From: Alphaproteobacteria bacterium
Lineage (GTDB): Bacteria > Pseudomonadota > Alphaproteobacteria > Caulobacterales > Hyphomonadaceae
Assembly (NCBI GenBank): GCA_018222605.1
Contig: JAAEZZ010000001.1
Span: 310,001 to 374,000 of the forward strand
Direction: 5' to 3'
DNA: 64,000 nucleotides
The notes under the pieces were generated by a model that did no database searches, was not told where the DNA came from, and was given only the letters and a program-made list of their open reading frames with translations. Below, one piece after another: positions 18,809 through 36,078 of this stretch (the stretch's first letter is position 1; the number at the start of each line of letters is the position of its first letter). The position numbers and the translations under genes were made by a program.

Positions 18809-19581
18809 GAGACGATCCGGTTTAGCACAGTGACAGGAATAACGCCCACATTATCCGGCCATTCCTCATGCCAGACGGGTTGATCATCAATCAGCTCAAA
18901 ACCGCTACCATCGCGGGACGACAATTCATGCGCCACGTCCGCCTGCCACGGAACAGGACGGATGGCGACCATGAAAACCGGAAGTTCCAGTTCCGAGATA
19001 GTGCTGACAACATCCAGGCCCGAGAATTCGGATGCCAGGGCATCTGTAACAGGAAACCCCATCACTTCACGGCCACCTCCCCGCTCCGGCGAAAACTGCG
19101 CGGCCGGGCCAACACCGGGAATGCGCATGGAGTCATCCAGCAAGTAAAGTTCCTGCAAATACTCTGCGCCCTTGAGGATCGGATCCCACAGAACCAGGGA
19201 CGAAATATCGTCAGGCCATTTCCTTGCTGCCTGCGCAGCAAGCGCTGCCCCCACACGCAGGCCGATCACGGACACATGATCTGCTCCGCTCAAGTCTTTG
19301 AGCTCCTCAATCGCCATGGAAATGTCGCTCAGTGATCCCTGAAGCGTCATTTCATGGTCTTCGCCAGCTGAATCCCCTGTGCCGAAATAGTCAAAGCGTA
19401 GGACATGATAACCTTCCTGCGACAGAAGACTGGCCAGCTTCACAAGCGAGCGGTGAGCGTTCACATATTCGTATCCCCAAGGATAGCACATCACAACGGC
19501 GCGGCTTCCACCCCCGCCCTGCGCTGGATGATAAACGCCAAACAGGCGCCGCTCTCGCGATCCGAAATAGAACGGCGTCAT
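18796..19581 (-). CDS. Alpha/beta hydrolase-fold protein lacking the usual nucleophile serine
   Basis: A 261-residue alpha/beta hydrolase-fold protein resembling hydrolase type 2 of exosortase loci. The fold is visible in VVMCYPWGYEYVNAHRSL near 29-46, RFDYFGTGDSAG near 62-73, and the elbow region VIGLRVGAALAAQ near 105-117. At the elbow the expected GxSxG reads GLRVG, so arginine replaces the nucleophile. The protein may use another residue, may be non-catalytic, or may act as a partner of the adjacent hydrolase. Its ATG overlaps the NRPS stop (ATGA). Confidence 0.68.
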   Translation of the reverse strand: MTPFYFGSRERRLFGVYHPAQGGGGSRAVVMCYPWGYEYVNAHRSLVKLASLLSQEGYHVLRFDYFGTGDSAGEDHEMTLQGSLSDISMAIEELKDLSGADHVSVIGLRVGAALAAQAARKWPDDISSLVLWDPILKGAEYLQELYLLDDSMRIPGVGPAAQFSPERGGGREVMGFPVTDALASEFSGLDVVSTISELELPVFMVAIRPVPWQADVAHELSSRDGSGFELIDDQPVWHEEWPDNVGVIPVTVLNRIVSWMN

Positions 19582-22500
19582 CCCTGACCCTCGGAATCAC
19601 GACGCAGCTGGGCCGCAATTTGTCTTAGATTCTGGAAGAACATAAGCCGAGGATCAAGCGGCAATCCGAGCATCTCTTCCACCCGTGCCACAACGCGCAG
19701 CGTCAACAGCGAATGCCCGCCAAGATCGAAAAAATTGTCTTCTGCACCGATTTCCTGCACCTGCAACAAATCTTTCCAGATGGCTGCAAGGTCAGTCTCA
19801 AAGCCTGGCGCAGGCGGTGTACGAACCATGCGCTGCATGGCTTGGCTATATGGGTCTGGCAGCGCCTTGCGGTCGACCTTGCCGTTCGGGGTCATGGGCA
19901 GAGCCGTGAGTTCGACAATCACGGAGGGCACCATGTAATTGGGCAGGCGATCTCTCGCTAGGCGGCGAACTTCACTCGCAGTCATTTCATTGCCAGGCTC
20001 GAAAACGACATATGCGACGAGACGCTGATCCCCCTCTCCAGCTTCGCTGACGATGACGATTGCCTGACGAATTGCGGGTGATGTCAGCAGGATGGACTCC
20101 ACCTCTCCCAGCTCAATACGCAGTCCACGGATTTTCACCTGATGGTCTCTGCGCCCGAGGTGATATAGCCTGCCATCGGATGACCAGCGGCCTACATCGC
20201 CTGTGCGGTAATAGAGACCAGCCCCATCCGCTGGCGCAGCAAAATGATCCGGCCGGAACTTTGCCTCAGTCTCGGCAGGCATATCATGATATCCGACGGC
20301 AACGCCATCACCGGCAATACAGATCTCTCCGCGCATACCGACCGGAGCGATCTCATCATTGGCATCCAGAACATAGATGCGGGTATTGGATAGGGGCTTG
20401 CCAATGCTAATGCCTTCCCCATCCGGCAAAATGAAACAGCCTGAGGAATAAATGGTTGTCTCGGTCGGGCCGTAGCCGTTCCAGAGAGAGCCGACACGTG
20501 AGAGCAGCTTGTCCGCAAGGTCGCGCGTCAGAGGCTCCCCGCCTGTGATCGCGCGAATGTGAGGTCCGCCTTGCCATCCCGCCTCGACCAGCATACGCCA
20601 CGCCGACGGAGTGGCCTGGGCGATCGTCGCACCACATGTATCCAGTGCCTTGGCCAGCGCTTGGCCATCTGTTGCAATGTCTCTCGACAAAAGCTGGATA
20701 TGCGCCCCGACTGTCAGGGGCAGCAGCAATTCCACGCCCGCAATGTCGAAGGACGCTGTCGTCGTCGCGGCAACAATATCCTCAGCCCCAACTCCTGGCT
20801 CTTGGCGCAAGGAAGAGAACGTGTTGGAGACAGAACCATGACGGATAATGACTCCCTTCGGGCGCCCCGTGGATCCTGACGTATAGATCAGATGACTGAT
20901 GTCTTCAGGCAAGACTTCAATGTCTGGCTCATGATCAGGACACGCAGCCAGCGCATCGGCATCCTGCTGCAGATCCAGTGTGAGCAGCCCGTCCGGCAAG
21001 TCCAGCTTTGCCGAGAATGACGCCTCCGCCAGCAAGGCTTTCGCCCCACTATCTGACAGCTGGTATTCAAGACGCCCCTGCGGAAAATCAGGGTCCAGTG
21101 GCAAATAGGCGGCACCTGCACGATGCACACCCAGAAGGGATTCCAGCAAACCGTGGCCGCGCTGAACACAGACCCCGACAATATCCCCCTTGCCGATACC
21201 CATATCGATCAAGCGGTGCGCCACTTGGTTCACACGCGAATTAAGCAGTCCATAGCTGAACGTTTCCCCGGCAAAGGTCACCGCCGGACGCGAGGGATGC
21301 TGACTGGCCATCCGCGCGAACTGTGCCGCAACTGGCGAGTGGTCATACTCACTCACTGGCGGATTGAAGGCTTCAATCAGATGCTGACGTTCATCGCCAA
21401 CATAAACCGGAATCTCCCCGATTGGACGGTCCGGCGAAGCTATGGCACCGCGAAGGAAAGCCTCAAGCCGTATCAACAGGCCCTGTATTGTCTGCTGACT
21501 GTAAATATCTGATCGATACTCCATCGACCCGACAAAACGCCCCTCCAGGGGGCGAATGAACCAAGTGAGATCGTGAATGGCGCCGCCGCCATGAATGGCT
21601 TCCGACTGCCCTTCCCAGGCATTCTGCATGACGACAGCAGTCTGAAACAGTAATGATCTGCTGAGATTTCGTGTCGGCTGCACACGTTCTATGACCGCTT
21701 CAAAGGGCACTTCAGCTCGGGAACTGGTCTCCAGTACCGCTTCGCGGGCCTGAGCCACCAGAGCGCGGAAAGAGACCTTCGGGTCAGCCTGCAGACGAAG
21801 TGCAATAGAGTTCACGAATGGACCAATAATGGTCTCAAACTCGGGCCGGTAACGCGCGCCGACAGCCGTACCAATCAGAATGTCTTCCTGTCCGGTCTGC
21901 CGGTTGAGCATGGCGGCACAGGCAGCAACCAGGCACATATAGACCGATGCACTTTCTGACTGTGCGAAGTTTCCAAGACCTGATGAAAGCGCCTCATCCC
22001 ACATGAACGACACGCTGGCGCCTGTGCCCTGCATACTGGGGGCCATGTCAGTATCGAAGGCGCACAGTTCCGGCGGAGAGGCCAGATATTTAGCCCACCA
22101 GTCCAGCGCCGCGTTCATGGATTGAGTTTGTTCAACCTTACGCGCCCAAACCGAATAATCCGCATACTGCAATTTTGCAGCACCGGAAAGATAGGCGTCA
22201 TCATCCAGAGCTGATTGCAATTCCTGCTTCAACAACGACATTGACCAATGATCGACGATGATATGATGCGCTGCAACGAGGATAGCGGACCCTCGCCCAC
22301 CAAGATCATACACAACGGCGCGGAGCGCTCCACCTCCTTCCAGATCGAATGGCAGGCCTGTCTGTCGGGCGACTTCCTGATCAAGGTGAGCATTCTGCTC
22401 GCTTTCGGAAAGTGAGCTTAAATCCTCACGATCAATGTGTACGGCGTCAGCCTGAAGCAATACAGCCTTCAAAACATCCCCGTCTCGTCTGTAGGCCGTA

Positions 22501-22874
22501 TGAAGAATTTCGTGCCGCGCCAATACTTGGCGTATGGCACTATCCAGACGCGCCGCATCAACCCCTGCACCCATGGGCCAGACCGTGACAAGATTGTATT
22601 CCGTCCCTTGCCGGTCCAGTTGCTGGAGCAGCCAGAGCCGTTCCTGAAAGTGTGACAAGGGCAATGCATCTTGCCGGGACACACGCTCCAGAGGAATCTC
22701 GTCCAGATCAGGCGATGACAAAATATCCAGAAGGGCCTGCTTGTTCGCGGTAATGCTTTCACGCAAAGAGGGAGTCAAAGCCCCGGAAGGCGCATTGACG
22801 CGCAGCTTGCCATCCCGGGGGGAGACCTCAATGCCTTTGGCACGCAACTCTGACAGGAGTTCCGCAGCGGTCAA
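19578..22874 (-). CDS. Non-ribosomal peptide synthetase module, docking-C-A-T
   Basis: A single elongation module of 1098 residues. Residues 1-55 are a TubC-type N-terminal docking domain (AAELLSELRAKGIEVSPRDGKLRV). The condensation domain follows with HHIIVDHW near residue 202; histidine stands where glycine follows the Asp in the canonical HHxxxDG. The adenylation domain carries YTSGSTGRPKG near 665, NGYGPTETTIY, and NGKVDRKAL (A10 lysine). The carrier domain has DNFFDLGGHSLL with the pantetheine serine at 1055. I read the specificity positions as D-I-V-Q-I-G-G-I-Y, near but not equal to a glycine code. There is no thioesterase, reductase or epimerase domain. The TTG start overlaps the upstream PKS stop (TTGA), with AGGAG 8 bases before. 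Confidence 0.92.
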   Translation of the reverse strand: MTAAELLSELRAKGIEVSPRDGKLRVNAPSGALTPSLRESITANKQALLDILSSPDLDEIPLERVSRQDALPLSHFQERLWLLQQLDRQGTEYNLVTVWPMGAGVDAARLDSAIRQVLARHEILHTAYRRDGDVLKAVLLQADAVHIDREDLSSLSESEQNAHLDQEVARQTGLPFDLEGGGALRAVVYDLGGRGSAILVAAHHIIVDHWSMSLLKQELQSALDDDAYLSGAAKLQYADYSVWARKVEQTQSMNAALDWWAKYLASPPELCAFDTDMAPSMQGTGASVSFMWDEALSSGLGNFAQSESASVYMCLVAACAAMLNRQTGQEDILIGTAVGARYRPEFETIIGPFVNSIALRLQADPKVSFRALVAQAREAVLETSSRAEVPFEAVIERVQPTRNLSRSLLFQTAVVMQNAWEGQSEAIHGGGAIHDLTWFIRPLEGRFVGSMEYRSDIYSQQTIQGLLIRLEAFLRGAIASPDRPIGEIPVYVGDERQHLIEAFNPPVSEYDHSPVAAQFARMASQHPSRPAVTFAGETFSYGLLNSRVNQVAHRLIDMGIGKGDIVGVCVQRGHGLLESLLGVHRAGAAYLPLDPDFPQGRLEYQLSDSGAKALLAEASFSAKLDLPDGLLTLDLQQDADALAACPDHEPDIEVLPEDISHLIYTSGSTGRPKGVIIRHGSVSNTFSSLRQEPGVGAEDIVAATTTASFDIAGVELLLPLTVGAHIQLLSRDIATDGQALAKALDTCGATIAQATPSAWRMLVEAGWQGGPHIRAITGGEPLTRDLADKLLSRVGSLWNGYGPTETTIYSSGCFILPDGEGISIGKPLSNTRIYVLDANDEIAPVGMRGEICIAGDGVAVGYHDMPAETEAKFRPDHFAAPADGAGLYYRTGDVGRWSSDGRLYHLGRRDHQVKIRGLRIELGEVESILLTSPAIRQAIVIVSEAGEGDQRLVAYVVFEPGNEMTASEVRRLARDRLPNYMVPSVIVELTALPMTPNGKVDRKALPDPYSQAMQRMVRTPPAPGFETDLAAIWKDLLQVQEIGAEDNFFDLGGHSLLTLRVVARVEEMLGLPLDPRLMFFQNLRQIAAQLRRDSEGQG

Positions 22875-25800
22875 ATCACAAACTCCTCACGATCATCATC
22901 CTGATCATCCTGCGAGTCATCGCGATGCGACACAACGCAATCGGCGAGTTCTCCAATCGTGGGAGAGTCAAATATGTCACGCAAGGTCAGCTTCACGCCC
23001 GTGACAGCATTCAGCCGGGACAAGACACGCGTCGCCATTAGCGAATGACCACCACGTTCGAAGAAGTTCTCGTGAGGTCCTTCCATTTCACCCCCAAGAA
23101 GCTCCTCCCAGATCATGGCGATCTGCTGCTCTTCCTCACGGCCAAACCTTGCCGCAATGGACGCTGAAACGTCCGCCGGTGCAGCAGAGGATGCAGCTCT
23201 GCCCGCATTCGCCTGGGACGTATCCGCTCCATTGGCGCGCAAAATCAACTCCGCACGTTCGTGCATGAGGACAATGGCCAGATTGTAGTTTGACACGACA
23301 AGCTGATCGACATCAGAGGCAAGAACACGCTCAAAAATGTCTGCCCCCACATCAGGGGGAATCGAAATCCTATAGAGGAGGTCGCGCTCATCCGGATTCA
23401 TGCGTGAGCGATCAATCCGGCTAGCCATGCCAACATCACGCCAAGCCTCCCAGTTGAAGATAAGAACATTGTTCCATGCTGCAGGACGCTCATTTGAAGC
23501 AACGAAAGTATCCAGGAAGGCATTGGCGGAGCTATAGGCTGCATTGCCCGCGACCCCCCTGACTGCGTTGATACTGCTCATGAGAGCGACAAAATCGAGT
23601 TCTGTATCGCCAAGAACATCGACCAGCACGCGCAGACCATCAACTTTCGGAGCGAATGTCTCTGTCACCTCTTGTTCGGTCTCGAGAGCTAAAAGATTGC
23701 CACTTCCTGGGACACCCGCCGCGTGAATAATCCCGGAGATCTCTCCCCATGCTTCACGGGTACGGTCAACAACGCCCTGCATGGCTTCCCGGTCAACGAC
23801 ATCTGCTTGTTCAATGCGGATTTCTCCGCCAAGAGATTCAATCTCGCGAACAGTCTTAATGACACTGGCAGTCCTATCCCGGTCAGAGGCGGCGGCCAGC
23901 AGGTCATCCCACGCGTCACGGGGAGGCACTGCATTTCGTGTGGTCACCACAATCCGTGCAGATACATTCTTGGCCAGCTGTCGGGCGAGAGTGCGACCGA
24001 TGCCGCCCAGGCCACCCGTAATCAGATAGACACCTTTCTGTTTCAGAATATCCGGTGTTTTTTCAGCGCGTGGCAGTTCAATAGGCTCAAACCGCCGCAG
24101 CCAGCGACGCTTGCGCCAGGCCAGTTGCAGTTCGAACTTTTCACGTCCCACTTCAGCAAGAAGACGCCGTGCATTCGTTTGCGATGTGGCCTTGCCGTCA
24201 TCCGCGAAATCCACATGCTGAGGCATCAAATGTGTCGTCTCAGCCGCCAATACGCTGATTGCGCCAAAGGCCAAAGCCACTTCGGGGTCTGTTACAGTTT
24301 CCTCCAGCACAGGCAGGCCGCCGCGTGTCGCGAGCACGACCCTGACGGGACGCTCAGTCGCGATTTCGGGATGGCGCGCCAGCGCGCTTAGGACATCATA
24401 GCGAAGACGACCAGGAATGTTGGCTCCCTCTTCCAGACCAAGCGCAATGATGACACCTGAAAGCGCTCCATTTGCCTCATCAATCAGGGCATTTAGTGTG
24501 CGAATGCTGTCTGCCGCATCTCCCGCATCCGTGCCTGATGGTGTGCCAAGCAAAGCCTCGGCACCGCCTTTCTCAAGACCGGATGTCAGGGCTTCACCAA
24601 ACGCGGAATTATCTGCCAGCACGACCCATTTTCCGCTGAAGACCGGAGCCTGCATTGTGTTGGCAGGGACCTGTGTCCATGTCGGCGCTTGAAGGAATTG
24701 ACCGAGACCTGCCTCAGGTGAAAATACTTCCACTAGCGGGTCCGTCACTTGAGCCACGGGGGCCTGCATGAACCCGCCGCCCGGCTTCGGATCCACCCAA
24801 TGACGCGTGCGCTCGAAAGGATATGTTGGCAGAGGAACGCGGTGCACTGAAGAAGTCTCACCGTGAAGCGCGGCCCAGTCAATCGGCACGCCCGCGGCCC
24901 ATATGGACCCGACAGCGTTGAGCGCCGGTATCATGTCATGCTGGCTGTCACGTGGATGGCGCATGGACGAAGCGATGCGGTACTGTGCACTGTCCAGGGA
25001 AATGCCGGCAAGCGAGGAAAGCGCAATCCCTGGCCCGACTTCCAGAAGGAAGAGGCCTGGATTCCGGGCAAGTTCCTGCAAGCCCTGCTCGAACAGAACA
25101 GCCTGACGCAGATGCTGGGCATAATAGTCGGGAGAAACGGCCTGTTCAGGCGTGATCCATGTGCCGGTCACATTGGAAATGTACGGCACTTGCGGTTCCT
25201 TGAGATTGACCTGCGCCGCCGCGGCGCGGAAAGGCTCAAGCGCTGGCTCCATCATGGAGGAATGGAACGCATGAGACGTATGCAGACGGCGTACGCCAAC
25301 ACCCTCGGATTCCAGACGCGTCAGGAACGCTTCCACCGTGCTGGCAGGTCCGGATATGGCGGTCAGTTCAGGCGCGTTGATGGCGGCAATCTCCACGCCA
25401 TCGGGAAGGCGCGCGCGCACCCGGTCGCCACTCAATTGTACCGTAGCCATGGAGCCCGCCGGCATGGCATGCATCAGGCGGCCCCGTTCGGCGACCAGAA
25501 GAAGCGCCTCTTCGAGAGTCATGACTCCCGCCAGATGTGCCGCAACATACTCGCCGATGCTGTGCCCCATCATGGCAGCAGGTTCGACACCCCAACTCTG
25601 CCATAGCTTTGCCATGGCATATTCGGTGGCAAACAAGGCGGGCTGCGTCACGCTGGTCTTGGCAAGATCCTCATCACTGCCTTCAAACAACACCTTGCAC
25701 AGATCAAGCCCCATGGATGATTTCAGAATACCCGCACACTGATCAATCGCAGCGCGATAGACGGGCTCTCCGGCATAAAGGTCATGTCCCATACCTGCAT

Positions 25801-27427
25801 ATTGGCTGCCTTGGCCACTGAACAGGAAAGCCACCTGACGGGTGCCACCCTCGTGTCGACGCGGCGTGAAGGATCGCGACAGGGCCACCATGGCTTCCTC
25901 TCCATCGCCAGCGATGACAAACCGGCGTACAGGAAATTCAGTTCGACCGGTTTGAAGCGTCCAGGCAGTATCAGCAAGAGACTGACTCGTGTTCTTGCCG
26001 ATATGATCTGCCAAACGGGAAGACGCCGCCGTGAGGGCCTCCTTCGTGCGGGCGGAGAGGACGAGCAGCTGATGCTTGCGGCTGGCAATGGCTGGTGCGG
26101 GTGTTGGCGCCTGCTCCAGCACCGCGTGGACATTCGTTCCGCCAATCCCGAAAGAACTCACGGCCGCGCGGCGCGGCGCGCCATTTCCAGTCCATTTCGT
26201 CGCGTCAGCACTGGCAGCAAACGGGCTGGCCTCCAGTTCAAGTTTCGGGTTAGGGCGGGAATAATTAACAAGAGGCGGAATGACACCTTCGCGCAGCACC
26301 AGAGCCGCTTTGATCAGACCTGCAACTCCCGCCGCCGCATCGAGGTGACCGATATTGGCCTTCAACGAGCCGAGGCGGCAAAAACCGACATCATCCGTCT
26401 CATAACGGAAGACTTGCGTCAGGGCGGCAATCTCGATCGGATCTCCCAGCGGCGTGGCGGTGCCGTGCGCCTCCATATAACCAATGGTTCGGGGGTCAAC
26501 GTCTGCAAGGGTCTGAGCCATGGCGATGACTTCGGCCTGACCGTCAATTGATGGGGCGGTGTAACCCGCTTTCGCTGCGCCGTCATTGTTGACGGCAATG
26601 CCGCGAATGACGGCGTGGATGGTGTCGCCATCGCGCATCGCATCGTCCAGACGCTTCAGCGTGACCACGCCAGCCCCTGCCCCGGCCCGCGTGCCTTTGG
26701 CCGCTTCGTCAAATGGCCGGCAGTGGCCATCAGGAGAGAAGATCATTCCCTCCTGGTAGAGATAGCCTGTGCTGCTGGGGAAGTTGATGGAGACGCCCCC
26801 GGCCAGTGCCATGTCGCACTCCCCGCGGGAAAGGGCGCGGCAGGCCATTTCAACAGCGACCAGAGAGGTAGAACAGGCCGTCTGTACCGTGGCGCTCGGC
26901 CCGCGCAGATCCAGCTTGTAACTTACCCGCGTACAGAGGAAGTCCTTGTCATTGCCGAGCATCAGCTGATACCCGCCAGCGGTCTCTGCCACAGATCTGT
27001 CCGACAGGATGTGTGCCATCAGATAGGTGTTCATACCTGTGCCGGCATACACACCGACCGGGTCTTCTATCTGCCCCGGGGCATAACCGGCATGTTCAAG
27101 CGCCTCCCAGGCGCATTCCAGAAAGATACGCTGCTGTGGGTCAATGATGCGCGCTTCCCCGGCAGACACGCCGAAGAAATCTGCATCAAACTTATCCGTA
27201 TCGTCAAGCACGGTTCCCTTCGGCACGAAATCCGGGTTGGCCTGAAGTTCAGGCGGAATTCCGGCAGCGGCCATGGTTTCCGCATCGAAGGTGCGCAGGG
27301 ACTCATGCCCTTCGACAATATTGCGCCAGAAGCTGTCCAGATCCGGTGCATCCGGAAACCGTCCCGCCATCCCTACAATGGCGATGGCGTGTGCCGGAAA
27401 ATCTGAAGATTGACGAGTCTTATCCAT
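22871..27427 (-). CDS. Type I polyketide synthase module, KS-AT-KR-T
   Basis: A one-module PKS of 1518 residues between two NRPSs. The ketosynthase has Cys185 (TACSTSL) and the histidines EAHGTAT and NIGHLDA. The acyltransferase has Ser623 in GHSIGEY and a HAFH motif, usual for malonyl-CoA. The ketoreductase has TGGLGGIG near 1136 and Tyr1298 in AAYSSAN, so it looks active. There is no DH or ER. The carrier (Ser1462, GGHSLMA) reads like a peptidyl carrier rather than the GLDSL acyl carrier type, fitting hand-over to the next NRPS. I prefer the ATG at 27427, which overlaps the NRPS stop as ATGGATAA, over the GTG at 27457. Expected output: two carbons with a beta-hydroxyl. Confidence 0.92.
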   Translation of the reverse strand: MDKTRQSSDFPAHAIAIVGMAGRFPDAPDLDSFWRNIVEGHESLRTFDAETMAAAGIPPELQANPDFVPKGTVLDDTDKFDADFFGVSAGEARIIDPQQRIFLECAWEALEHAGYAPGQIEDPVGVYAGTGMNTYLMAHILSDRSVAETAGGYQLMLGNDKDFLCTRVSYKLDLRGPSATVQTACSTSLVAVEMACRALSRGECDMALAGGVSINFPSSTGYLYQEGMIFSPDGHCRPFDEAAKGTRAGAGAGVVTLKRLDDAMRDGDTIHAVIRGIAVNNDGAAKAGYTAPSIDGQAEVIAMAQTLADVDPRTIGYMEAHGTATPLGDPIEIAALTQVFRYETDDVGFCRLGSLKANIGHLDAAAGVAGLIKAALVLREGVIPPLVNYSRPNPKLELEASPFAASADATKWTGNGAPRRAAVSSFGIGGTNVHAVLEQAPTPAPAIASRKHQLLVLSARTKEALTAASSRLADHIGKNTSQSLADTAWTLQTGRTEFPVRRFVIAGDGEEAMVALSRSFTPRRHEGGTRQVAFLFSGQGSQYAGMGHDLYAGEPVYRAAIDQCAGILKSSMGLDLCKVLFEGSDEDLAKTSVTQPALFATEYAMAKLWQSWGVEPAAMMGHSIGEYVAAHLAGVMTLEEALLLVAERGRLMHAMPAGSMATVQLSGDRVRARLPDGVEIAAINAPELTAISGPASTVEAFLTRLESEGVGVRRLHTSHAFHSSMMEPALEPFRAAAAQVNLKEPQVPYISNVTGTWITPEQAVSPDYYAQHLRQAVLFEQGLQELARNPGLFLLEVGPGIALSSLAGISLDSAQYRIASSMRHPRDSQHDMIPALNAVGSIWAAGVPIDWAALHGETSSVHRVPLPTYPFERTRHWVDPKPGGGFMQAPVAQVTDPLVEVFSPEAGLGQFLQAPTWTQVPANTMQAPVFSGKWVVLADNSAFGEALTSGLEKGGAEALLGTPSGTDAGDAADSIRTLNALIDEANGALSGVIIALGLEEGANIPGRLRYDVLSALARHPEIATERPVRVVLATRGGLPVLEETVTDPEVALAFGAISVLAAETTHLMPQHVDFADDGKATSQTNARRLLAEVGREKFELQLAWRKRRWLRRFEPIELPRAEKTPDILKQKGVYLITGGLGGIGRTLARQLAKNVSARIVVTTRNAVPPRDAWDDLLAAASDRDRTASVIKTVREIESLGGEIRIEQADVVDREAMQGVVDRTREAWGEISGIIHAAGVPGSGNLLALETEQEVTETFAPKVDGLRVLVDVLGDTELDFVALMSSINAVRGVAGNAAYSSANAFLDTFVASNERPAAWNNVLIFNWEAWRDVGMASRIDRSRMNPDERDLLYRISIPPDVGADIFERVLASDVDQLVVSNYNLAIVLMHERAELILRANGADTSQANAGRAASSAAPADVSASIAARFGREEEQQIAMIWEELLGGEMEGPHENFFERGGHSLMATRVLSRLNAVTGVKLTLRDIFDSPTIGELADCVVSHRDDSQDDQDDDREEFVI

Positions 27428-30400
27428 GGCGAAGCCGTTCAGCCCTCTCTTTGGCACGTGACAGACGATCTGATTTGGCGGCTAGAACAGGTTGTTCGGG
27501 CCTGCCTGGTGCAGTCTTGCTGCCATCATTCTGCGGAATAACTTCCGCCTGCTGCGCAACTGTTGTGCGCTGGAACAATTCAATCAGCGCGATGTTGGCG
27601 CCCAGATCACTACGCAGGCGTTCATGCAGCCGGACCATCAGCATCGAATGGCCGCCGATATCGAAGAAATTGTCATTGAGGCCGATATGCGAGACGCCAA
27701 GAATACCGCGCCAGATATCGGCAACACTCCGCTCAGCAGGTGACATGATCACGTCATTGGCAGCCGGGGCTGCAACCTGCTCTTCCTGGGGCGCAGGCAG
27801 CGCCTTGCGATCAACCTTGAGATTGGGCGTCAGCGGGAAGGCGTCCATCGCAACGACATAGGATGGCACCATATAGTTCGGCAGCTTCTCGCGCAGCGCA
27901 GCCCGGATCAGGCCGGAATCAACCCTACGACCTTGAGACGGCACGACATATGCCACCAATTGATGATCTCCAGGCGCGCGCTCATGCGCAACGACAGCAC
28001 ATTCCGCGACACCTTCAAGGGCGCCGAGTTCGGATTCGATCTCGCCCAGTTCGATACGGAAGCCGCGGATCTTCACCTGGAAGTCCCGTCGCCCAAGATA
28101 GATGAGCCGTCCATCTGCCGTCTCGCGAGCAAAGTCCCCGGTACGATAGATGCGCTCCGCATCATGTCCCGGAAGGTCCAGTGTCATGTACCGCTCATCG
28201 GTCAGATCCTGCCGTCCACGATAACCGCGTGCCACGCCTTCACCGCCGATGCAGAGTTCGCCAATTGCGCCGGGTGGAACAGGATTGCCCTGGTCATCAA
28301 GAATATAGGTGCGTGTGTTCGCAATCGGCTTGCCGATGCTCGCCGCATCATCCGCCTTGCAGATACGCTGTACGGTGGACCAGATTGTTGTCTCGGTCGG
28401 GCCATACATGTTCCACACCTCGCCTAGACGCTGGACCAGCCCCTCGGCCAGCGCATGCGGCAGAGCCTCACCGCCACAGAGCGCCTTCATGCCTTCGCGG
28501 CCTTTCCAGCCCGTCTCGATCAGCACATTCCAGGTCGCAGGCGTCGCCTGCAAGATGTCCACGCCTTCGCTGTCCATCAGCGCAGCAAGAGCCCGGCCAT
28601 CCAGCGCAGTCTCACGCGCAGCGACAACCATGCGCGCCCCGCTGCTCAGCGGCAACCATGCCTCAAGACCAAAAATATCAAAGGATGGTGTGGTCACCGA
28701 CAGCAAGGTCTGGCCGGGCTTGATACCGGGCTCATCACGCATGGCGACAAGGAAGGCCGCAAGATTGCGATGCTCAACCTCAACACCTTTCGGCCGGCCG
28801 GTAGAGCCTGATGTATAGATCACATAGGCAACATCTTCCGGCGCAGTTGTCCGTGCCGGCGCAGTTTGCGGCATGGAGGCAATCTGTTCTGCGGCCGCGT
28901 CCAGCGACAAGACAGAAGGCTGGTCAGAAAATTGTCCGACAGCAGAAGAATCTGTCAGGATCAGGTCAACTCCGGCATCGGATACGATACCGTTTACCCG
29001 CTCCTCAGGGTGTTTCGGATCCAGCGGCAGATAAGCCCCGCCCGCTTTCCAGACAGCCAGAAGCGCAACCGGCAACATGGCGCTGCGGCCAAGACTGACC
29101 GCCACCAGACTGCCCTGATCAATGCCCTGAGCACGCAGCAGATTGGCCAGCTGGTTCGCCCGGCGATCCATCTCGGCGTAACTGAGCGTTTCCGCCGCAT
29201 CGGTAATCGCGCCCTGATCCGCATAGCCGCGCGCACACGCCTCGATCATGTCGAGTGCTGTAGCGGAGCGGTCAAACTCCCGTACTGTTCGTGTGTTGGC
29301 ATTTGCAATGGACGCGCGGTCATCCGCTGTCAGCATCTGCAAGGCGTTGACCGGTACTGACGGGTCAGCAATCGCAGACTGAAGCAGCATTTTATAGTGG
29401 CTATGCAGTCGCTCTATCGTGGCCGCGTCAAACAGGTCTGTCGAATATTCGTACTGCGTCAGCAATTCGCCGCCGAAATCAACGCAATCCAGAGACAGGT
29501 CATAACGCGATGCACCCGTGCCTGAGGGGATGGCCTCAACTTCGGTACCCTTGAAGCCATGCTCGATTTTAGGGAAACTCATCAGGCTGAACAGCGCCTG
29601 GAAGATCGGCGCATGGCTGGCACTGCGTTCCGGGTTCACCGTATCGACCAAAAGGTCGAACGGAAGCTCGCTATGCTCAAGAGAGCCGAGTGTCGTGAGG
29701 CGAATTTCTTTCAAATAATCGCTGAAGCTGAGTTCGCCATTGATACGGCACCGCAGGACCATATTGTTGATCAGACAGCCGATCATGCCTTCCTGGTCTG
29801 CGCCATTGCGGTTGGCATGTGGAGACCCGAGCACAATGTCGGACTGGCCGCTATACCGGTAGAGGGTTGCCGCCCAGCCTGCCATCAGCAGCATGAAAAG
29901 CGTCACACCCTGGGAGCGGGCGAGTGCGTTCAACTGATCAAACATCTGTGCATCGAAACGTTCAATCAGGCGCGCGCCTTTATAGGTCTGATTGGCGGGG
30001 CGGCGACAGTCTGTCGGCAGGTCGATAACAGCCGGAGCGCCGCGCAGTTCCTCGCGCCAGAAATCAACATGCGTCTTCCATTCTGCGGAAACTGCCATAC
30101 GGCGCTCGCGCCGGGCATGGTCCGTCGCCTGCCCGCTAACTGGCGGCAGGTCCGGTTCACGCCCCTCAACCAGCGCATCATAGATGTCCACGACTTCGCG
30201 GTGCGCCAGAGCCAGCGACCAGCCATCAACGATAATGTGATGGGCCATAAAAAGGGTCGCATGGCGGGTGTCGTTGACCCGGATCAGGGTGAACGTGGCA
30301 AGCGGTCCGGTGCCAAGATCAAAAGGCTGCTGCAGGCGCTGATCGATGATCCGCTGCACTTCACCTTCCTGATCTTCAGGCGCGACATGTGCCAAATCGA

Positions 30401-32387
30401 TATATTCATAACTGGGAAGAAGCGTATCGACCGTCTCCGCCACCGGATTGCCGTCGACTTCCTTGAAGCGCATGCGCAACGCATCATGACGCTTGGCCAG
30501 CCGGTTGAAAGCCGCGATGATCTTTGCTGGCTGGATTGGCCCATCTATCCAGGCCGCAGATCCGACATTGAACGCCGTGCTCATGGGATCAAGACGGCTC
30601 AAGAACCACAGTCTTTGCTGCGCGAAAGACAGGGGCAAACCTGTTTTGTGGTCAAGATCGCCTGCCTGACCAGACGCATCAGACTGAAGGGCCGCCATGA
30701 TCGCCGGCTTCATCGCGACGAGTTCATTGCGCAAGGGTCCGTCAATCGCACCTTTTGGGGCATTGATCCGCAGCTGATCGCCATCCAGCGACAGAGTAAC
30801 CCCTCTGTCTGCCAATCTACCGAAAAGGGTATTCACGTCCATTTCGCTCTCCTGACTATTACCAGAAGCTGCTTGCAAGGAACTTGCCGGTTGAAATGCA
30901 TCAATCGGCCGCGCACAATCTGTAACAAAATCAGACAGTATCGCTTCAAATCGCTCAGCCATGGCTTCCACCGTAGCGCGATCATAAAGATCTGTATCAT
31001 ATCCCCAATACATGACGAGATCAGATCCTGTATCCTCAAGCCGCAAGGAGAGGTCGAACTGACCCTCCATTTGTGGAATGGGATAAGACTCTTCTGAACG
31101 CCCCTCATCAACGCCGGTAAATGGCATCTCCTTGCTGCGGCCCAGGACATGCTCGTACTGGATATAGGTGAACAGGACATCAAAGAACGGCATGTGCGAG
31201 GAGACACGCGGCGGATTGAGCGTGTCGACAAGCCTCATCAGCGGCATGTCCTGATGATCTAGCGCATCCAGCATCCGGTCTCTGGTTTCTTCAACTAGCC
31301 CCCGGAAGCTTTTGCCCGGCGTCAGGCTGAAGCGGATCGGCAACGGGTTGGCAAAGTGGCCCACTGTATGGCTGAAACGCTCTTCAGTCCGCCCAAGAAA
31401 GGGGCTGCCGATAATCACGTCGTCAAGGTCAGCCAATTGCCCCAGCAGGACGGCGTAGGTTGCCATAAGAACGGTTGGCCGTGTCGTGTGTATGTCCTTG
31501 ACGGTCTTGTCGAGCATGGAAACAAGCTCAGGCGACAAGGTTCGCTGTATCGTACTGCCGCGGAATGTACGGTTGACTGGTCGCGGCCGATCCGTGGGCA
31601 ATTCCATGACGGGGAGTGGCGCCTTCAGCACATCTCGCCAGTGAGCAATCAGGGCCTTTCCTTTCGGCCCGGTAAGCTCGGCTCGCTGGGCGGCCACGTA
31701 GTCCGGATAAGTTGCCTGACCAGACGGCATTTGTGTATCAAGACCGGCTATCAGATCATTGTAAAACTGCTTCAGATCGTGACAGGCCACAGCGCTGGCT
31801 GTCGCATCACAGACGATATGATGCGCTTCGAAAAGAATGATGTGATCGTCTTCAGTCACACGAAACAGGGCCAGTCGACAGACAGGGCCATCAACAAGAT
31901 TGAACGGGCGTTTGTGCACCTGTTTGACCTGATCTAGGACTTCCTGCTCCGAGCAATGCTCCACCCGATAATGCTTAAGACGCACCTTGCGGGATCGCGG
32001 AATGCGCTGGACAGGATTACCCGCCACAACAGGGAAACAGGCACGCAAAGGAGCATGCCGCTCCAGCACCTTATGGAAAGCCCGCTCAAGCACAGCCGGC
32101 TCAATGCGGCCTTTCACCCTCCAGGCAACAGACAGGTTGTAAGCGGAATTAAGCGGTGCCTGCCAGTACACAAACCATAAAGACCGCTGCCCGTCTGAAA
32201 GCGGAATGTCCTGCGCAACCTCGCGCGCCTCCAGGGCCGCCAGAATAGCTGGTTGATTATTCCGAAGCACGGCCTTGTCGCTATCGCGCAAAGCCCCCTT
32301 GGGCCCGCGAAAGCGTATCTTGCCATCCGAGGCCCAGAGGGCCACCTCGCGCCTGGCAAGATCCTGTATAAATTGGTCGATGTCCAT
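27420..32387 (-). CDS. Non-ribosomal peptide synthetase, docking-C-docking-C-A-T, glycine-type code
   Basis: First gene of the leftward arm, 1655 residues. Residues 1-58 are a TubC-like docking domain, followed by condensation domain C1 (HHIVCDA near 188). At residue 516 a second TubC-like docking sequence begins (MDVNTLFGRLADRGVTL), then C2 with canonical HHIIVDGW near 717. The adenylation domain has YTSGSTGRPKG near 1187, NMYGPTETTIW and NLKVDRKAL; the carrier serine is 1581 (GGHSMLM). I read the specificity positions as D-I-L-Q-L-G-M-I-W, the code I know for glycine. Two condensation domains for one adenylation and one carrier domain is unusual: C1 may accept a chain or starter from a separate carrier. 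Confidence 0.92.
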   Translation of the reverse strand: MDIDQFIQDLARREVALWASDGKIRFRGPKGALRDSDKAVLRNNQPAILAALEAREVAQDIPLSDGQRSLWFVYWQAPLNSAYNLSVAWRVKGRIEPAVLERAFHKVLERHAPLRACFPVVAGNPVQRIPRSRKVRLKHYRVEHCSEQEVLDQVKQVHKRPFNLVDGPVCRLALFRVTEDDHIILFEAHHIVCDATASAVACHDLKQFYNDLIAGLDTQMPSGQATYPDYVAAQRAELTGPKGKALIAHWRDVLKAPLPVMELPTDRPRPVNRTFRGSTIQRTLSPELVSMLDKTVKDIHTTRPTVLMATYAVLLGQLADLDDVIIGSPFLGRTEERFSHTVGHFANPLPIRFSLTPGKSFRGLVEETRDRMLDALDHQDMPLMRLVDTLNPPRVSSHMPFFDVLFTYIQYEHVLGRSKEMPFTGVDEGRSEESYPIPQMEGQFDLSLRLEDTGSDLVMYWGYDTDLYDRATVEAMAERFEAILSDFVTDCARPIDAFQPASSLQAASGNSQESEMDVNTLFGRLADRGVTLSLDGDQLRINAPKGAIDGPLRNELVAMKPAIMAALQSDASGQAGDLDHKTGLPLSFAQQRLWFLSRLDPMSTAFNVGSAAWIDGPIQPAKIIAAFNRLAKRHDALRMRFKEVDGNPVAETVDTLLPSYEYIDLAHVAPEDQEGEVQRIIDQRLQQPFDLGTGPLATFTLIRVNDTRHATLFMAHHIIVDGWSLALAHREVVDIYDALVEGREPDLPPVSGQATDHARRERRMAVSAEWKTHVDFWREELRGAPAVIDLPTDCRRPANQTYKGARLIERFDAQMFDQLNALARSQGVTLFMLLMAGWAATLYRYSGQSDIVLGSPHANRNGADQEGMIGCLINNMVLRCRINGELSFSDYLKEIRLTTLGSLEHSELPFDLLVDTVNPERSASHAPIFQALFSLMSFPKIEHGFKGTEVEAIPSGTGASRYDLSLDCVDFGGELLTQYEYSTDLFDAATIERLHSHYKMLLQSAIADPSVPVNALQMLTADDRASIANANTRTVREFDRSATALDMIEACARGYADQGAITDAAETLSYAEMDRRANQLANLLRAQGIDQGSLVAVSLGRSAMLPVALLAVWKAGGAYLPLDPKHPEERVNGIVSDAGVDLILTDSSAVGQFSDQPSVLSLDAAAEQIASMPQTAPARTTAPEDVAYVIYTSGSTGRPKGVEVEHRNLAAFLVAMRDEPGIKPGQTLLSVTTPSFDIFGLEAWLPLSSGARMVVAARETALDGRALAALMDSEGVDILQATPATWNVLIETGWKGREGMKALCGGEALPHALAEGLVQRLGEVWNMYGPTETTIWSTVQRICKADDAASIGKPIANTRTYILDDQGNPVPPGAIGELCIGGEGVARGYRGRQDLTDERYMTLDLPGHDAERIYRTGDFARETADGRLIYLGRRDFQVKIRGFRIELGEIESELGALEGVAECAVVAHERAPGDHQLVAYVVPSQGRRVDSGLIRAALREKLPNYMVPSYVVAMDAFPLTPNLKVDRKALPAPQEEQVAAPAANDVIMSPAERSVADIWRGILGVSHIGLNDNFFDIGGHSMLMVRLHERLRSDLGANIALIELFQRTTVAQQAEVIPQNDGSKTAPGRPEQPVLAAKSDRLSRAKERAERLRHG
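30842..30856 (-). promoter_or_regulatory. Internal ribosome site and ATG inside the NRPS gene
   Basis: On the minus strand, AGGAG is followed by six bases and an in-frame ATG at 30842, exactly where the internal docking domain (residue 516) starts. This is a better ribosome site than that of the annotated start at 32387. It is either the relic of a former gene boundary or an active internal start giving a separate docking-C-A-T protein. Confidence 0.5.
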
Positions 32388-32528
32388 GTTACCTAAACGA
32401 TTGCAACCGACTCAGCTGGACTCGAATGTGATCAAGTTGCGTCCCCTGCCCGAATGTAATCTACGTCCCCTCCAAAAGAGCCTGGACCAAGCCTCAAATA
32501 TTCAATCAAAAGTAATGGTTGTCCCACC

Positions 32529-32581
32529 TTGGAGCATATCACCTTTTAAGTAATAGCGCTGGTTTCCCCAGCATGCTCCAA
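32529..32581. promoter_or_regulatory. Inverted repeat in the divergent cluster promoter region
   Basis: The 281-base gap between the leftward NRPS and the rightward phosphopantetheinyl transferase holds the only divergent promoter region of the cluster. TTGGAGCAT (32529-32537) and ATGCTCCAA (32573-32581) are perfect 9-base inverted copies 35 bases apart. They could bind a dimeric or looping regulator serving both arms. I could not place confident -35/-10 pairs, and no regulator gene lies in the window. Confidence 0.35.
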
Positions 32582-32668
32582 TATGGCAGGCATTGCCATA
32601 GCAGTTTAGAACAAGTCAACGACACGGCGATTTATTTTAGAGCCGCCAAAATTAATCTTGCGAGCAAA

Positions 32669-33466
32669 ATGACCCAAACCGGGACACTTCCCACAAGCTT
32701 TGAAGATTTTCCTGCACGGAACCTGCTGAAAGCCGAGACCGGTGATGCAGATGATTTGCTGCGCCCCTATGTGGATGAAGTCCACCTCTGGCTTATGCCC
32801 ACGGACCTGCCGCCCCTTCCCCTGGAACGTCTGGCCAACCTGTTATCTCCAGCCGAAACGGCCAGGGCGAACCGCTTTCATTTTCCGCTTCACCGAACCC
32901 GCTATATGGCCGCACATGGCTTCCTGCGACTGGTTCTGAGCACATGCGGAGCGGGCAATGCGCGGGATCTGGAGTTTGTCACTGGACCGCAGGGCAAGCC
33001 TTCTTTGCTCAGTCCGGCGGGCTCTGCGCCATTACTCCACTTCAACTTGTCTCATTCGGGCGCATGGGCGCTGCTGGCGACCGCAACTTCAGGAGGTATT
33101 GGCGCGGATATTGAGGAAATCAGGGCCTTTGATGATTTCCAGAGCATGGCCCGCAATACATTCTCACCTCCTGAGACGGCCAATTTGCTTTCTCTGCCTT
33201 CTGATCGTCAGCTTGATGGCTTTTTTGCCTGCTGGGCGCGAAAGGAAGCTCTGATCAAAGCTGACGGGCGCGGCCTGGGCGTACCTCTTGACCATTTCGA
33301 GGTTAATGTGGACCCTGGCCAGCCGGCCTGCCTGCATCGGGCCGAAGAAGACGCCACCCCACTCCAGCAGTTTGAAATTCATGACCTTCCTGCAATCCAG
33401 GGCTATCGGGCCACGGCTGCTGTCCCCAAGGAAATATGCCGGTTCAGGTTTTTTCGAATAACCTAA
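32669..33466 (+). CDS. Sfp-type 4'-phosphopantetheinyl transferase
   Basis: This enzyme converts apo carrier domains of the NRPS and PKS proteins to the holo form by adding the phosphopantetheine arm from coenzyme A. From the ATG at 32669 the product is 265 residues, the two-lobed Sfp size. Motifs are complete: LTCGAGN-like N-lobe, FNLSHSG, IGADIEEI (Mg-binding Asp and Glu) and WARKEALIKADGRGL. An upstream in-frame start at 32519 would add 50 residues of low-complexity non-family sequence. It is the first gene of the rightward arm and serves as the cluster's carrier activator. Confidence 0.9.
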   Translation: MTQTGTLPTSFEDFPARNLLKAETGDADDLLRPYVDEVHLWLMPTDLPPLPLERLANLLSPAETARANRFHFPLHRTRYMAAHGFLRLVLSTCGAGNARDLEFVTGPQGKPSLLSPAGSAPLLHFNLSHSGAWALLATATSGGIGADIEEIRAFDDFQSMARNTFSPPETANLLSLPSDRQLDGFFACWARKEALIKADGRGLGVPLDHFEVNVDPGQPACLHRAEEDATPLQQFEIHDLPAIQGYRATAAVPKEICRFRFFRIT

Positions 33467-33560: not shown

Positions 33561-35039
33561 ATGGATAAAGTCAGGATAGCTGTCGTAATCGCTACAGCGG
33601 ACAAATATGTCACGACAGTTTTTACTCTGCTTACCACCGCGATCGTTGCGCGCATCATCAACCCGGCAGAATTTGGTGTCACGGTGCTGGGCGGCGCAGC
33701 CCTTCTGCTGGCGAATACCCTGCGGGACGTCGGTACGTCTGCCTATATTATCCAGACCCCTGAATTGACGACAGGTAAAGCGCGCGCCGTCTTCACGATG
33801 AACCTTATACTGACAGCGGTCATTCTTGTTGGCCTGTTGCTTTCATCACCATTTCTGGCGATTGCATTCAATACTCCGGGGCTGGGAGTTTACCTTCAGG
33901 TGTGCGCGGCGCCCTTCGCTGTGGGCGCGATCGTGTACCCTCTGCACGCATTGCTGGCCCGTGACCTCGCCTTCGGAAAGCTCGCTGTGGTCAACATCAT
34001 TTCCACACTGGTCAATTCAGTCACCCTGATCGTAACGGCCTATATCGGCGCCAGCTACATGAGCTTTGCCTTCGCGCAGGTCGTCTCCGCAATTGCCGGG
34101 ACTGTGCTGCTGGTCTACTTCCGTCCGAGCTTCGAGATTTTCCGCCCTTCGCTGAAATTCTGGAAAGAAATCCTCTCTTTCAGCATCTTCAGTGGGGGAA
34201 CGGGCATCGTCCAGCGCGCATCAGAGGTTATCTCGGTGATGACAGTCGGTGTTTTCATGACGCCTGCAATGGTGGGGCTGCTGAACCGCGCGTCGATGAT
34301 CTCCCAGTTTCCGGAACGTACAATCATGGCGGGCGTAAACGCGGCCGCCTTGCCGGCCTTCTCAAAGGCCTCCCGCGAGAAGGGAGATATGCGGCGATAT
34401 TATCTGGCTGCTGTGGAGCGGATCAGCGGCCTGATCTGGCCATGTCTGGCAATGATCATCCTTCTGGCCAATCCCCTGATCCGTGTATTTCTGGGAGACC
34501 AGTGGCTGGAGACCATTCCCCTCGTACAGATTATCGCGGGTGGCCTTTTGTTGAACTTTCCGCCCGGCATCAACTATCCAATCCTCGTGGCGGCAGGGGC
34601 CGTGCGTAAGGCGTTTATGCTTTCCATCCTGCAATCCTGTGTCGCTCTTCCAATCATTGCCGTCAGCGCTCAATTCGGGCTGGAGGCCGTCGCTTGGGCA
34701 ACCTGGCCGATCGTGGCAATCAACGTCATCCTGTCGACCCACTTCGTCAAAGCCTATGTCGCAAAGTTCAGCTGGCTGGACCTGCTGGGGGCTTTGAAAC
34801 TCAGCCTGCTCTCAACGCTTGCGGCAATCGCAGGCCCGGCAGTGATCATCTGGCACGCAGGCGGCTTCGATCAGATCGGCATCGTGGGAAGCATAGCGGC
34901 AGTAGCCATTGCCTGCCCCAGCTGGCTATTGGCACTCTGGGCGCTGCGCCACCCGCTGTTCGCAGAGCTTTCACGCGCCATCAGAAGCATTCTGTTGCGC
35001 CTCAACAGAATGCGGCCCGCAGACGGGACACGCCTGTAA
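33561..35039 (+). CDS. MOP-superfamily polysaccharide/lipid flippase
   Basis: A 492-residue inner-membrane protein with about 12-14 hydrophobic helices, of the Wzx/polysaccharide transporter group. Typical features are the N-terminal TTAIVARIINPAEFGVTVLG (related to the LLxPxDFGxxA signature of the family), FAQVVSAIAGTVLLVYFRPS, and the loop NRASMISQFPERTIMAGVNA in the middle of the protein. GGGGAC lies 6 bases before the ATG. These proteins move lipid-linked sugars across the membrane. Placed between the phosphopantetheinyl transferase and the thioesterase, it is the only transporter visible in the cluster, and I infer that it exports or flips the product or a glycosylated, lipid-like form of it. 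Confidence 0.82.
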   Translation: MDKVRIAVVIATADKYVTTVFTLLTTAIVARIINPAEFGVTVLGGAALLLANTLRDVGTSAYIIQTPELTTGKARAVFTMNLILTAVILVGLLLSSPFLAIAFNTPGLGVYLQVCAAPFAVGAIVYPLHALLARDLAFGKLAVVNIISTLVNSVTLIVTAYIGASYMSFAFAQVVSAIAGTVLLVYFRPSFEIFRPSLKFWKEILSFSIFSGGTGIVQRASEVISVMTVGVFMTPAMVGLLNRASMISQFPERTIMAGVNAAALPAFSKASREKGDMRRYYLAAVERISGLIWPCLAMIILLANPLIRVFLGDQWLETIPLVQIIAGGLLLNFPPGINYPILVAAGAVRKAFMLSILQSCVALPIIAVSAQFGLEAVAWATWPIVAINVILSTHFVKAYVAKFSWLDLLGALKLSLLSTLAAIAGPAVIIWHAGGFDQIGIVGSIAAVAIACPSWLLALWALRHPLFAELSRAIRSILLRLNRMRPADGTRL

Positions 35040-35181: not shown

Positions 35182-35262
35182 AGAAGTGGGTAATTTAAAA
35201 AGTTGATCCGGTCCGACCTGAAGCGTCAGGATCTGGGGTGATTGTGTGGGACACGAGTATTT

Positions 35263-36078
35263 ATGAGTATCCAGAATATGTCCGGGCAGCGTACTGAGAC
35301 GCCACGGCCAGCCAGTTGGTTTTTCAAACCGGCCCCTAAACCGAATGCCAGCGTGCGACTGTTCTGCTTTCCTTGTGCAGGGTATGGCGCCGCCATGTAT
35401 CGAAGCTGGCAAACTCAAGGACCGGACTGGCTTGAAGTCATCGCTGTCCAGCCTCCTGGCCGCGCAAACCGCCTGAGAGAAGCGCCTCTCGACAATTTTG
35501 ATGAGCTGATTGCGTCTATCCTGCCCCAGATCTCTGAGCTGACAGACCTTCCATACGCCTTTTTCGGCCACAGTATGGGCGCAGTTTTCGCGGCTGAACT
35601 GGCTTCAGCCATGGTTCAGAGCGGGCTTCCTGCACCTGTACATTTGTTCCTGTCGGCACGGCAGCCCCCGAATTTGCCGAGCCCCGTCGGCCCATTGTCA
35701 CACCTTGAGGATGATGCCTTCGTACAGGAGGTCAATCAGCGCTATGGGGCCATTCCGCGTGAAATCATCGAAGCCCCGGAAGTTCTGGAGCTGTTGCTGC
35801 CAGCGTTGCGTGCCGATATTCGCGCGCTGGAGCGTATCCAGAATCGGCAAGTTCGCACCCTGCCCTCTTCCATCACGGCGCTGGGTGGCACGAATGACCG
35901 ACTCGTTCCCCAACCCCTGCTGGAAGGCTGGGAATCCTGGACCGACCAGGCCTTCGAATTGCGCATGTTCAATGGTGGTCATTTCTATCTGGACGATCAG
36001 CGCGCGGCACTGATTTTGCACATTTCAAAGACTCTTGAGGCGAAATCACGTGAAGGCCGGAAACGCACAGACGCATGA
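35263..36078 (+). CDS. Type II thioesterase (GrsT family)
   Basis: A stand-alone editing thioesterase that hydrolyses wrong or stalled acyl groups from carrier domains. The product is about 271 residues from the ATG at 35263. It shows RLFCFPCAGYGAAMYRSW, VQPPGRANRLREAPL, the nucleophile in FFGHSMGAVFA, and the C-terminal NGGHFYL that supplies the catalytic histidine. An aspartate in LGGTNDRLVP completes the triad. An in-frame TTG at 35242 would add seven residues. It lies 35 bases upstream of the first PKS gene of the rightward arm. Confidence 0.92.
   Translation: MSIQNMSGQRTETPRPASWFFKPAPKPNASVRLFCFPCAGYGAAMYRSWQTQGPDWLEVIAVQPPGRANRLREAPLDNFDELIASILPQISELTDLPYAFFGHSMGAVFAAELASAMVQSGLPAPVHLFLSARQPPNLPSPVGPLSHLEDDAFVQEVNQRYGAIPREIIEAPEVLELLLPALRADIRALERIQNRQVRTLPSSITALGGTNDRLVPQPLLEGWESWTDQAFELRMFNGGHFYLDDQRAALILHISKTLEAKSREGRKRTDA

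Follow-up and report, generated by a model that had tools for sequence, protein, structure and literature searches.

A peptide synthetase of Hyphomonas-group bacteria with two docking-condensation units and different predicted partners for each

Docking domains of the TubC_N type normally sit at the N-termini of proteins, and a peptide synthetase gene in which one of them lies between two condensation (C) domains raises the question of what the second docking domain could serve. The gene, NRPS1, is encoded in a window of 64,000 nucleotides, the whole stretch of DNA that was analysed (contig JAAEZZ010000001.1, positions 310,001 to 374,000, from a marine Hyphomonas, an alphaproteobacterium of the Hyphomonadaceae with a genome size of 3.7 Mb). 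An earlier note on this DNA had claimed the domain order docking-C1-docking-C2-A-T, with which profile matches and motif positions agree: HMM searches place two TubC_N, two Condensation, one AMP-binding and one PP-binding domain in the ORF. The parts of NRPS1 are as follows.

27420..32387, minus strand: NRPS1, 1655 aa, bHD1-C1-bHD2-C2-A-T
32226..32387, minus strand: bHD1, docking domain (TubC_N), core IRFRGPKGAL, predicted Gly-type partner code; abbaa in the structure model
30903..32210, minus strand: first condensation domain (C1), motif HHIVCDA; its clade consists mainly of C domains at N-termini
30843..30902, minus strand: linker between C1 and bHD2, 20-30% identity to the two distant orthologues, partly of low pLDDT; includes AGGAG
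30849..30853, minus strand: AGGAG before the ATG at the joint, putative former or working ribosome-binding site
30840..30842, minus strand: ATG of Met516, possible internal start
30690..30842, minus strand: bHD2, internal docking domain (TubC_N), core LRINAPKGAI, predicted Phe-type partner code; more conserved than bHD1
29307..30638, minus strand: C2 condensation domain, HHIIVDG
27819..29243, minus strand: A domain with C-terminal subdomain, profile match; pocket residues D-I-L-Q-L-G-M-I-W, read by eye
27540..27725, minus strand: T (carrier) domain, profile match

The internal docking domain begins at residue 516 of the open frame and lies at the corresponding places in three orthologues. The TubC_N profile (PF18563) matched three places in the genome above the cut-off, including both NRPS1 domains, and PDB 6CGO is the best PDB sequence match of bHD1 and bHD2. 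In a structure model of moderate quality (pLDDT 75, pTM 0.46), bHD2 is composed of H518-527, E531-535, E538-542, H550-558 and H560-572, with pLDDT 63-71 for residues 521-570 and 48 for residues 511-520, and bHD1 is similar. An N-terminal position is usual for TubC_N, yet it is no part of the fold. The A-domain pocket presumably reads as glycine-like in all four clusters, and two acylations on one amino-acid side chain are therefore unlikely.

NRPS1 is followed on the minus strand by PKS5, NRPS2 and two hydrolase genes, and a plus-strand PKS operon extends beyond the window, with PKS7 as its last protein; the interpretation below depends on this extension.

22871..27457, minus strand: PKS5 (KS-AT-KR-ACP), ORF overlapping the NRPS1 stop
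22874..22894, minus strand: C-terminal SLiM of PKS5, DREEFVI; [DE]REEFVI in four of four clusters
19578..22874, minus strand: NRPS2, bHD3-C-A-T, bHD3 core LRVNAPSGAL
17861..19581, minus strand: two overlapping alpha/beta hydrolase genes after NRPS2, perhaps for release
32519..33466, plus strand: 4'-phosphopantetheinyl transferase
33561..35039, plus strand: polysaccharide-flippase-type exporter
35242..36078, plus strand: free-standing thioesterase-domain protein
36114..58898, plus strand: PKS1-PKS4, tails of the LSDEEL helical type
58895..64000 and past the window end to G000:C14:375482, plus strand: PKS6 (KS-AT-DH-MT-KR-ACP)
outside the window, G000:C14 about 376345-382686, plus strand: PKS7 (KS-AT-DH-ER-KR-ACP), tail EEEWEEGVI

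No TE family was found among the matches of NRPS2. A 289-aa ORF between PKS6 and PKS7 appears membrane transporter-like by eye. The tail of PKS6 is LSDEEL-like, as are those of PKS1-PKS4, and PKS4, with its LSEEEL tail, was discarded as a docking partner of NRPS1 once the operon proved to include PKS6 and PKS7. The tails of PKS7 in the four clusters are EEWEEGVI, EEWEEGVI, PEWEEGTI and MEWEEGTL, all of which fit EWEEG[VT][IL].

Orthologues of NRPS1 were found in Hyphomonas pacifica (95% identity), an Alphaproteobacteria MAG (66%) and H. oceanitis (65%), and each of the 13 cluster proteins compared has a counterpart in all three other clusters. The fused form is present in the window and in all three orthologues; since four genomes agree, a sequencing or assembly artefact is ruled out. 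That the orthologues found are all fused is one of the outcomes that the earlier note had named as counting against its reading, and no split orthologue was seen among the matches listed in 61 genomes (own included) or in 38 loci gathered with conserved parts of the N-terminal half of NRPS1. Among these 38 loci, the order docking-C-docking-C was confined to the three orthologous Hyphomonas-group loci. TubC_N was then searched with E up to 0.001 in 398, 398, 48, 145 and 369 genomes, and in these 1,358 genome searches of overlapping samples, no frame outside the four Hyphomonas-group clusters had two listed TubC_N matches, in keeping with the claim that such domains normally sit at N-termini. 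In the analysis as a whole, Cyanobacteria were sampled through the 38 loci and plasmids only, and Myxococcota were absent. Among the papers listed in literature searches, none had a title or abstract that described a bHD flanked by C domains on both sides, and the "tandem condensation domains" in the cited passage of PMC10522769 are short segments of a poly-amino-acid synthetase, which is a different thing. The observed architecture is real and beyond chance, and its conservation in the four clusters is established. Two side observations concern docking domains elsewhere. In L070:2050-3423 (458 aa) and L071:10535-11887 (451 aa), TubC_N precedes a region that looks methyltransferase-like by eye and not a C domain, the ORF of L070 lying directly before a docking-C-A protein. 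On a Halotia branconii plasmid (L176, 6001-11519), an IS701 transposase gene lies between a docking-C gene and the next adenylation gene.

To read the docking domains, those of clusters from other organisms were each paired with the C-terminus of the ORF immediately preceding them. Tail types were fixed as patterns after a first set and applied to both this set and a fetched, unviewed second set. Overall, tails with Gly third from the end preceded docking domains with an aromatic residue (Phe or Tyr) in beta-2 in 22 of 22 cases, while Phe/Leu/Met tails did so in 1 of 21. The aromatic residue followed Gly-type tails in 9/9 cases of the first set, 6/6 of the second and 7/7 of named plasmid records (Actinomycetota, Bacillota, Alphaproteobacteria and Cyanobacteria), the last having been gathered in part by similarity to Bamb_5915, itself aromatic at the beta-2 place. 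For Phe-type tails the counts in the same order were 0/14, 1/6 and 0/1, and for Ile/Val-type tails 1/11, 0/4 and 0/3, with the window's own PKS5-bHD3 pair left out of the counts. Fisher tests on the second set only, in which kinship is ignored, gave 0.015 for Gly versus Phe and 0.00087 for Gly versus the rest. Near-identical rows remain in these counts (e.g. L092/L093, L147/L149, L170/L171/L177), and a filter at 80% identity leaves 44 of the 50 typed rows of the first and second sets; untyped are 49 of the 100 domains listed (10 without an upstream ORF, 39 with an untypable tail) and 5 of 16 in the plasmid set. In L121, one of these untyped rows, the tail EEEGVSI, in which Gly stands one place further in, precedes a domain with Leu in beta-2; if counted as Gly-type it would be an exception, though a register shift is also conceivable.

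A whole-domain classifier assigned 31 of 44 domains correctly in leave-one-out runs (Gly 14/15, Phe 16/19, Ile 1/10). As far as the sequences compared go, the partner rule splits Gly-type docking domains from the rest and does not split Phe-type from Ile-type ones. The cause could be a match in size, small Gly against a bulky ring and Phe against a smaller side chain. The published accounts of SLiM binding cited here emphasise salt bridges together with a hydrophobic face that spans the five C-terminal residues of the SLiM (PMC9113145; PMC6195595); they also describe SLiM-bHD pairs as promiscuous and a SLiM as sometimes dispensable (PMC9113145; PMC13324335). We claim no novelty for the rule.

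The three docking domains of the cluster differ at the residue concerned: beta-2 holds F in bHD1 (KIRFRGPKG), I in bHD2 (QLRINAPKG) and V in bHD3 (KLRVNAPSG). By this rule, bHD1 is predicted to match the PKS7 tail, and bHD2 the PKS5 tail, as is bHD3 of NRPS2, so that three bHDs stand against two SLiMs and the PKS5 tail is code-compatible with both bHD2 and bHD3. The cores of bHD1 and bHD2 and the tails of PKS7 and PKS5 are conserved in all four clusters. That NRPS1 holds two distinct sequence codes, each with a tail that matches it, is a plain observation. The whole-domain classifier gave Phe-type for bHD2 in 4/4 clusters, with a lead of 9-13 nats over Gly-type, and also for bHD3 of the window; bHD1 was called Gly-type in 3/4, by 1.5-3.5 nats, that of H. 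pacifica being called Phe-type by 1.7. From their codes, the two ports of NRPS1 thus seem to answer to separate proteins, and PKS5, the predicted partner of port 2, follows NRPS1 in gene order. We regard the different docking codes within one protein as a stronger finding than the internal start discussed below. The earlier note had missed this difference in predicted partners and the position of one partner gene behind that of NRPS1.

We favour, at slightly less than even confidence, a model in which NRPS1 is a two-input glycine-type module whose C1 would admit the polyketide and whose C2 would be a re-entry port for the product of PKS5. The protein would have arisen when a bHD-C protein was joined in frame to one of the layout bHD-C-A-T. 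Port 1 (bHD1-C1) would bind the C-terminal SLiM of PKS7 (WEEGVI), and C1 would join the finished polyketide to a glycine-type residue on the NRPS1 carrier, after which PKS5 would extend the NRPS1-bound chain. The PKS5 tail (REEFVI) could then dock at bHD3 of NRPS2, the exit, or at port 2 of NRPS1 (bHD2-C2), in which case re-entry would lead to the addition of a further residue and to another round through NRPS1 and PKS5. Port 2 may work from full-length NRPS1 or from a short protein started at Met516. Here we infer physical docking, the activity of both C domains and recursion. The iterative rhabdopeptide synthetase, with three bHDs and two SLiMs, is a precedent in favour of the model. Counting against it are the failure of the rule to split Phe-type from Ile-type domains, the narrow Gly-type call of bHD1 in three clusters out of four, the number of untyped rows, the promiscuity of SLiM-bHD pairs and the moderate quality of the structure model. 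The more specific form of this model, a hard-wired recursion port in which a module with two orthogonal docking-condensation inputs, the first for chains that enter and the second for chains that come back from the module's own downstream PKS, loops a glycine-ketide step by design, possibly with an internally started protein that carries the re-entry port only, is put forward more tentatively, and we would give it about one chance in three.

Use of the internal start is another reading, and one that is compatible with the two-input model rather than opposed to it. The gene would then yield the 1655-aa protein and a separate 1140-aa bHD2-C2-A-T protein from Met516, serving the PKS5 tail, which we hold to be possible but on balance unlikely. 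As the earlier note had pointed out, the ATG at 30842, residue 516, has AGGAG (30853-30849) 6 nt before it. Met is kept at the joint in 4/4 clusters; AGGAG is conserved in all of them but that of H. oceanitis, which has CAAGGG instead, and this loss speaks against a start in use. As background, AGGAG at -15 to -5 was counted for the in-frame ATGs past residue 60 of every open frame with a length of at least 900 aa. The joint is the sole case among 327 internal ATGs of the window cluster, which favours the internal start, and also among 332 in H. pacifica; it is one of three among 300 in the MAG, and H. oceanitis has 0 of 283. Pairing with the anti-SD is -8.0 at Met516 versus -1.8 at the annotated NRPS1 start, a difference in favour of the internal start that is tempered by the 5.2% of internal ATGs that pair as well as Met516. 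The site in the window species is among the 2.4% least structured and the 0.9% lowest-GC internal ATGs, again as expected of a start in use; the ranks are 9.9% (structure) and 0.9% (GC) in H. pacifica. Structure is ordinary in the MAG (31%, with GC at 38%) and in H. oceanitis (71%, with GC at 22%), which counts against the internal start. In its favour, the short form would resemble NRPS2 in layout and roughly in length. On the other hand, reduced synonymous change was not seen around Met516, 25% of 20-codon windows showing as little. No promoter or terminator was found on the minus strand at the joint. Judging by these features, Met516 and AGGAG look like a former gene start, and the start may still be functional in the window's lineage. 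The kept Met and the placement of AGGAG beyond chance uphold the in-frame fusion of two proteins proposed in the earlier note, an idea that is well supported.

A former gene start at the joint would also be expected if bHD2 were a relic of the fusion. The line would once have run via bHD2-C2-A-T, and bHD1-C1, added in front, would have taken over the chain; C2 would only support the A domain, bHD2 would be unused and there would be no recursion. C domains are also the platform of their A domains, and such C-A platforms are structurally needed, which counts for the relic; since C2 doubles as the platform of its A domain, it may be conserved for reasons other than catalysis. In comparison with the two distant orthologues, identity is 76% for bHD2, 71-76% for C2, 73-75% for A and 76% for T, and 52-61% for bHD1, 54% for C1 and 20-30% for the linker. 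Because the identity of bHD2 and C2 matches that of A and T and is above that of bHD1, C1 and the linker, bHD2-C2 is, by this measure, as conserved as A and T, and port 2 is not decaying. The bHD2 core reaches 95% in the same orthologues, which are 65-66% identical overall, against the poorly kept linker, the HHxxxDG of C2 is kept in 4/4 clusters, and bHD2 retains a partner code that is matched by a tail in the cluster. These points argue against the relic, to which we assign roughly one chance in four.

A further reading has C2 take the PKS7 chain in the ordinary way, with C1 degenerate or non-condensing. C1 evolves faster than C2 (54% identity to the distant orthologues; dN/dS of 0.139 versus 0.050 in the closest pair) and carries HHxxxDA. 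Many C domains of the C1 clade share HHxxxDA, however, so that the motif is no sign of decay, and the predicted code for the PKS7 tail is in bHD1, not bHD2. HHxxxD is retained in both domains in 4/4 clusters (C1 HHIVCDA, C2 HHIIVDG); C1 does not look dead, and a dead C1 is not supported; the earlier note had named grouping with inactive C domains as counting against its reading. Both domains have a C-domain fold in a structure model: C1 matched 9a82 (Z 40.4, rmsd 2.7, 427 aligned) and C2 matched 8fx6 (Z 42.7, rmsd 2.9, 424 aligned), in a fold search whose rows fall mostly on C2 and outside the bHDs. In the tree, C1 belongs to a 33-row clade (support 100/99) of mostly N-terminal C domains. Besides the own four rows, 29 rows of this clade were gathered with C1 motifs. 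The upstream ORF was typed for 13 of them and carries PKS motifs in 9 cases and an A-domain motif in 4, and these 4 count against the two-input model. C2 lies outside the C1 clade and is not grouped with the C domain of NRPS2, although PKS5 would supply the chains of both, which also counts against that model. C1 has a docking domain of its own, and this and its clade make it probable that C1 acts on the carrier of another subunit, the part of the earlier interpretation that stood together with the fusion. A degenerate C1 is accordingly improbable in our view.

Least probable is a partnership of bHD2-C2 with a carrier from some other locus of the genome. In the described system, several bHD subunits can be recruited by a single SLiM, and there is cross-talk between pairs (PMC9113145), but the C domains and TubC_N domains listed for the own genome, three of each, belong without exception to this cluster, and the other two large KS ORFs, on contig 15, end in IADFFR and DVAKP, unlike the tails of PKS5 and PKS7.

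The two-port logic most likely resembles that of known systems, here with a dedicated port. The rhabdopeptide synthetase Kj12ABC of Xenorhabdus likewise has three bHDs and two SLiMs, whose varying affinities, as far as the cited sections go, allow iteration (PMC9113145; PMC6195595), but each of its bHDs sits on its own single-module protein, whereas NRPS1 has a bHD between two C domains. In the thalassospiramide synthetase of Alphaproteobacteria, modules already passed have been proposed to receive the growing chain again (PMC12081711; PMC5577590). In contrast, this job would fall here to a separate protein with a second docking-condensation port dedicated to it. The primary paper reportedly describes pass-back extension within one multimodular enzyme. 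Bamb_5915, the bHD-C of enacyloxin (PDB 6CGO), is a bHD-C unit taking a chain from a SLiM-bearing carrier (PMC13324335), as the ports of NRPS1 are predicted to do, but it is a chain-release enzyme, and no second bHD-C-A-T is fused to it. In the lines for depsipeptide HDAC inhibitors (PcdC/PcdK, DepC/DepD), as predicted for NRPS1, the chain is handed over from PKS to NRPS via a SLiM and an N-terminal bHD-C-A-PCP; unlike in NRPS1, the junction described there has a single bHD and a single C (PMC13324335).

Assembly lines are usually read as a single pass from gene order. If the two-input model is true, two ports keyed to different tails would be a bacterial loop or merge point built into the line, in which the second port would return the growing molecule for another round, and such a built-in loop would be unusual. 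It would also offer engineers a natural design for programmed iteration, and the tail-docking rule, Gly with aromatic and Phe with mostly aliphatic residues, is in itself a usable predictor of subunit partners.
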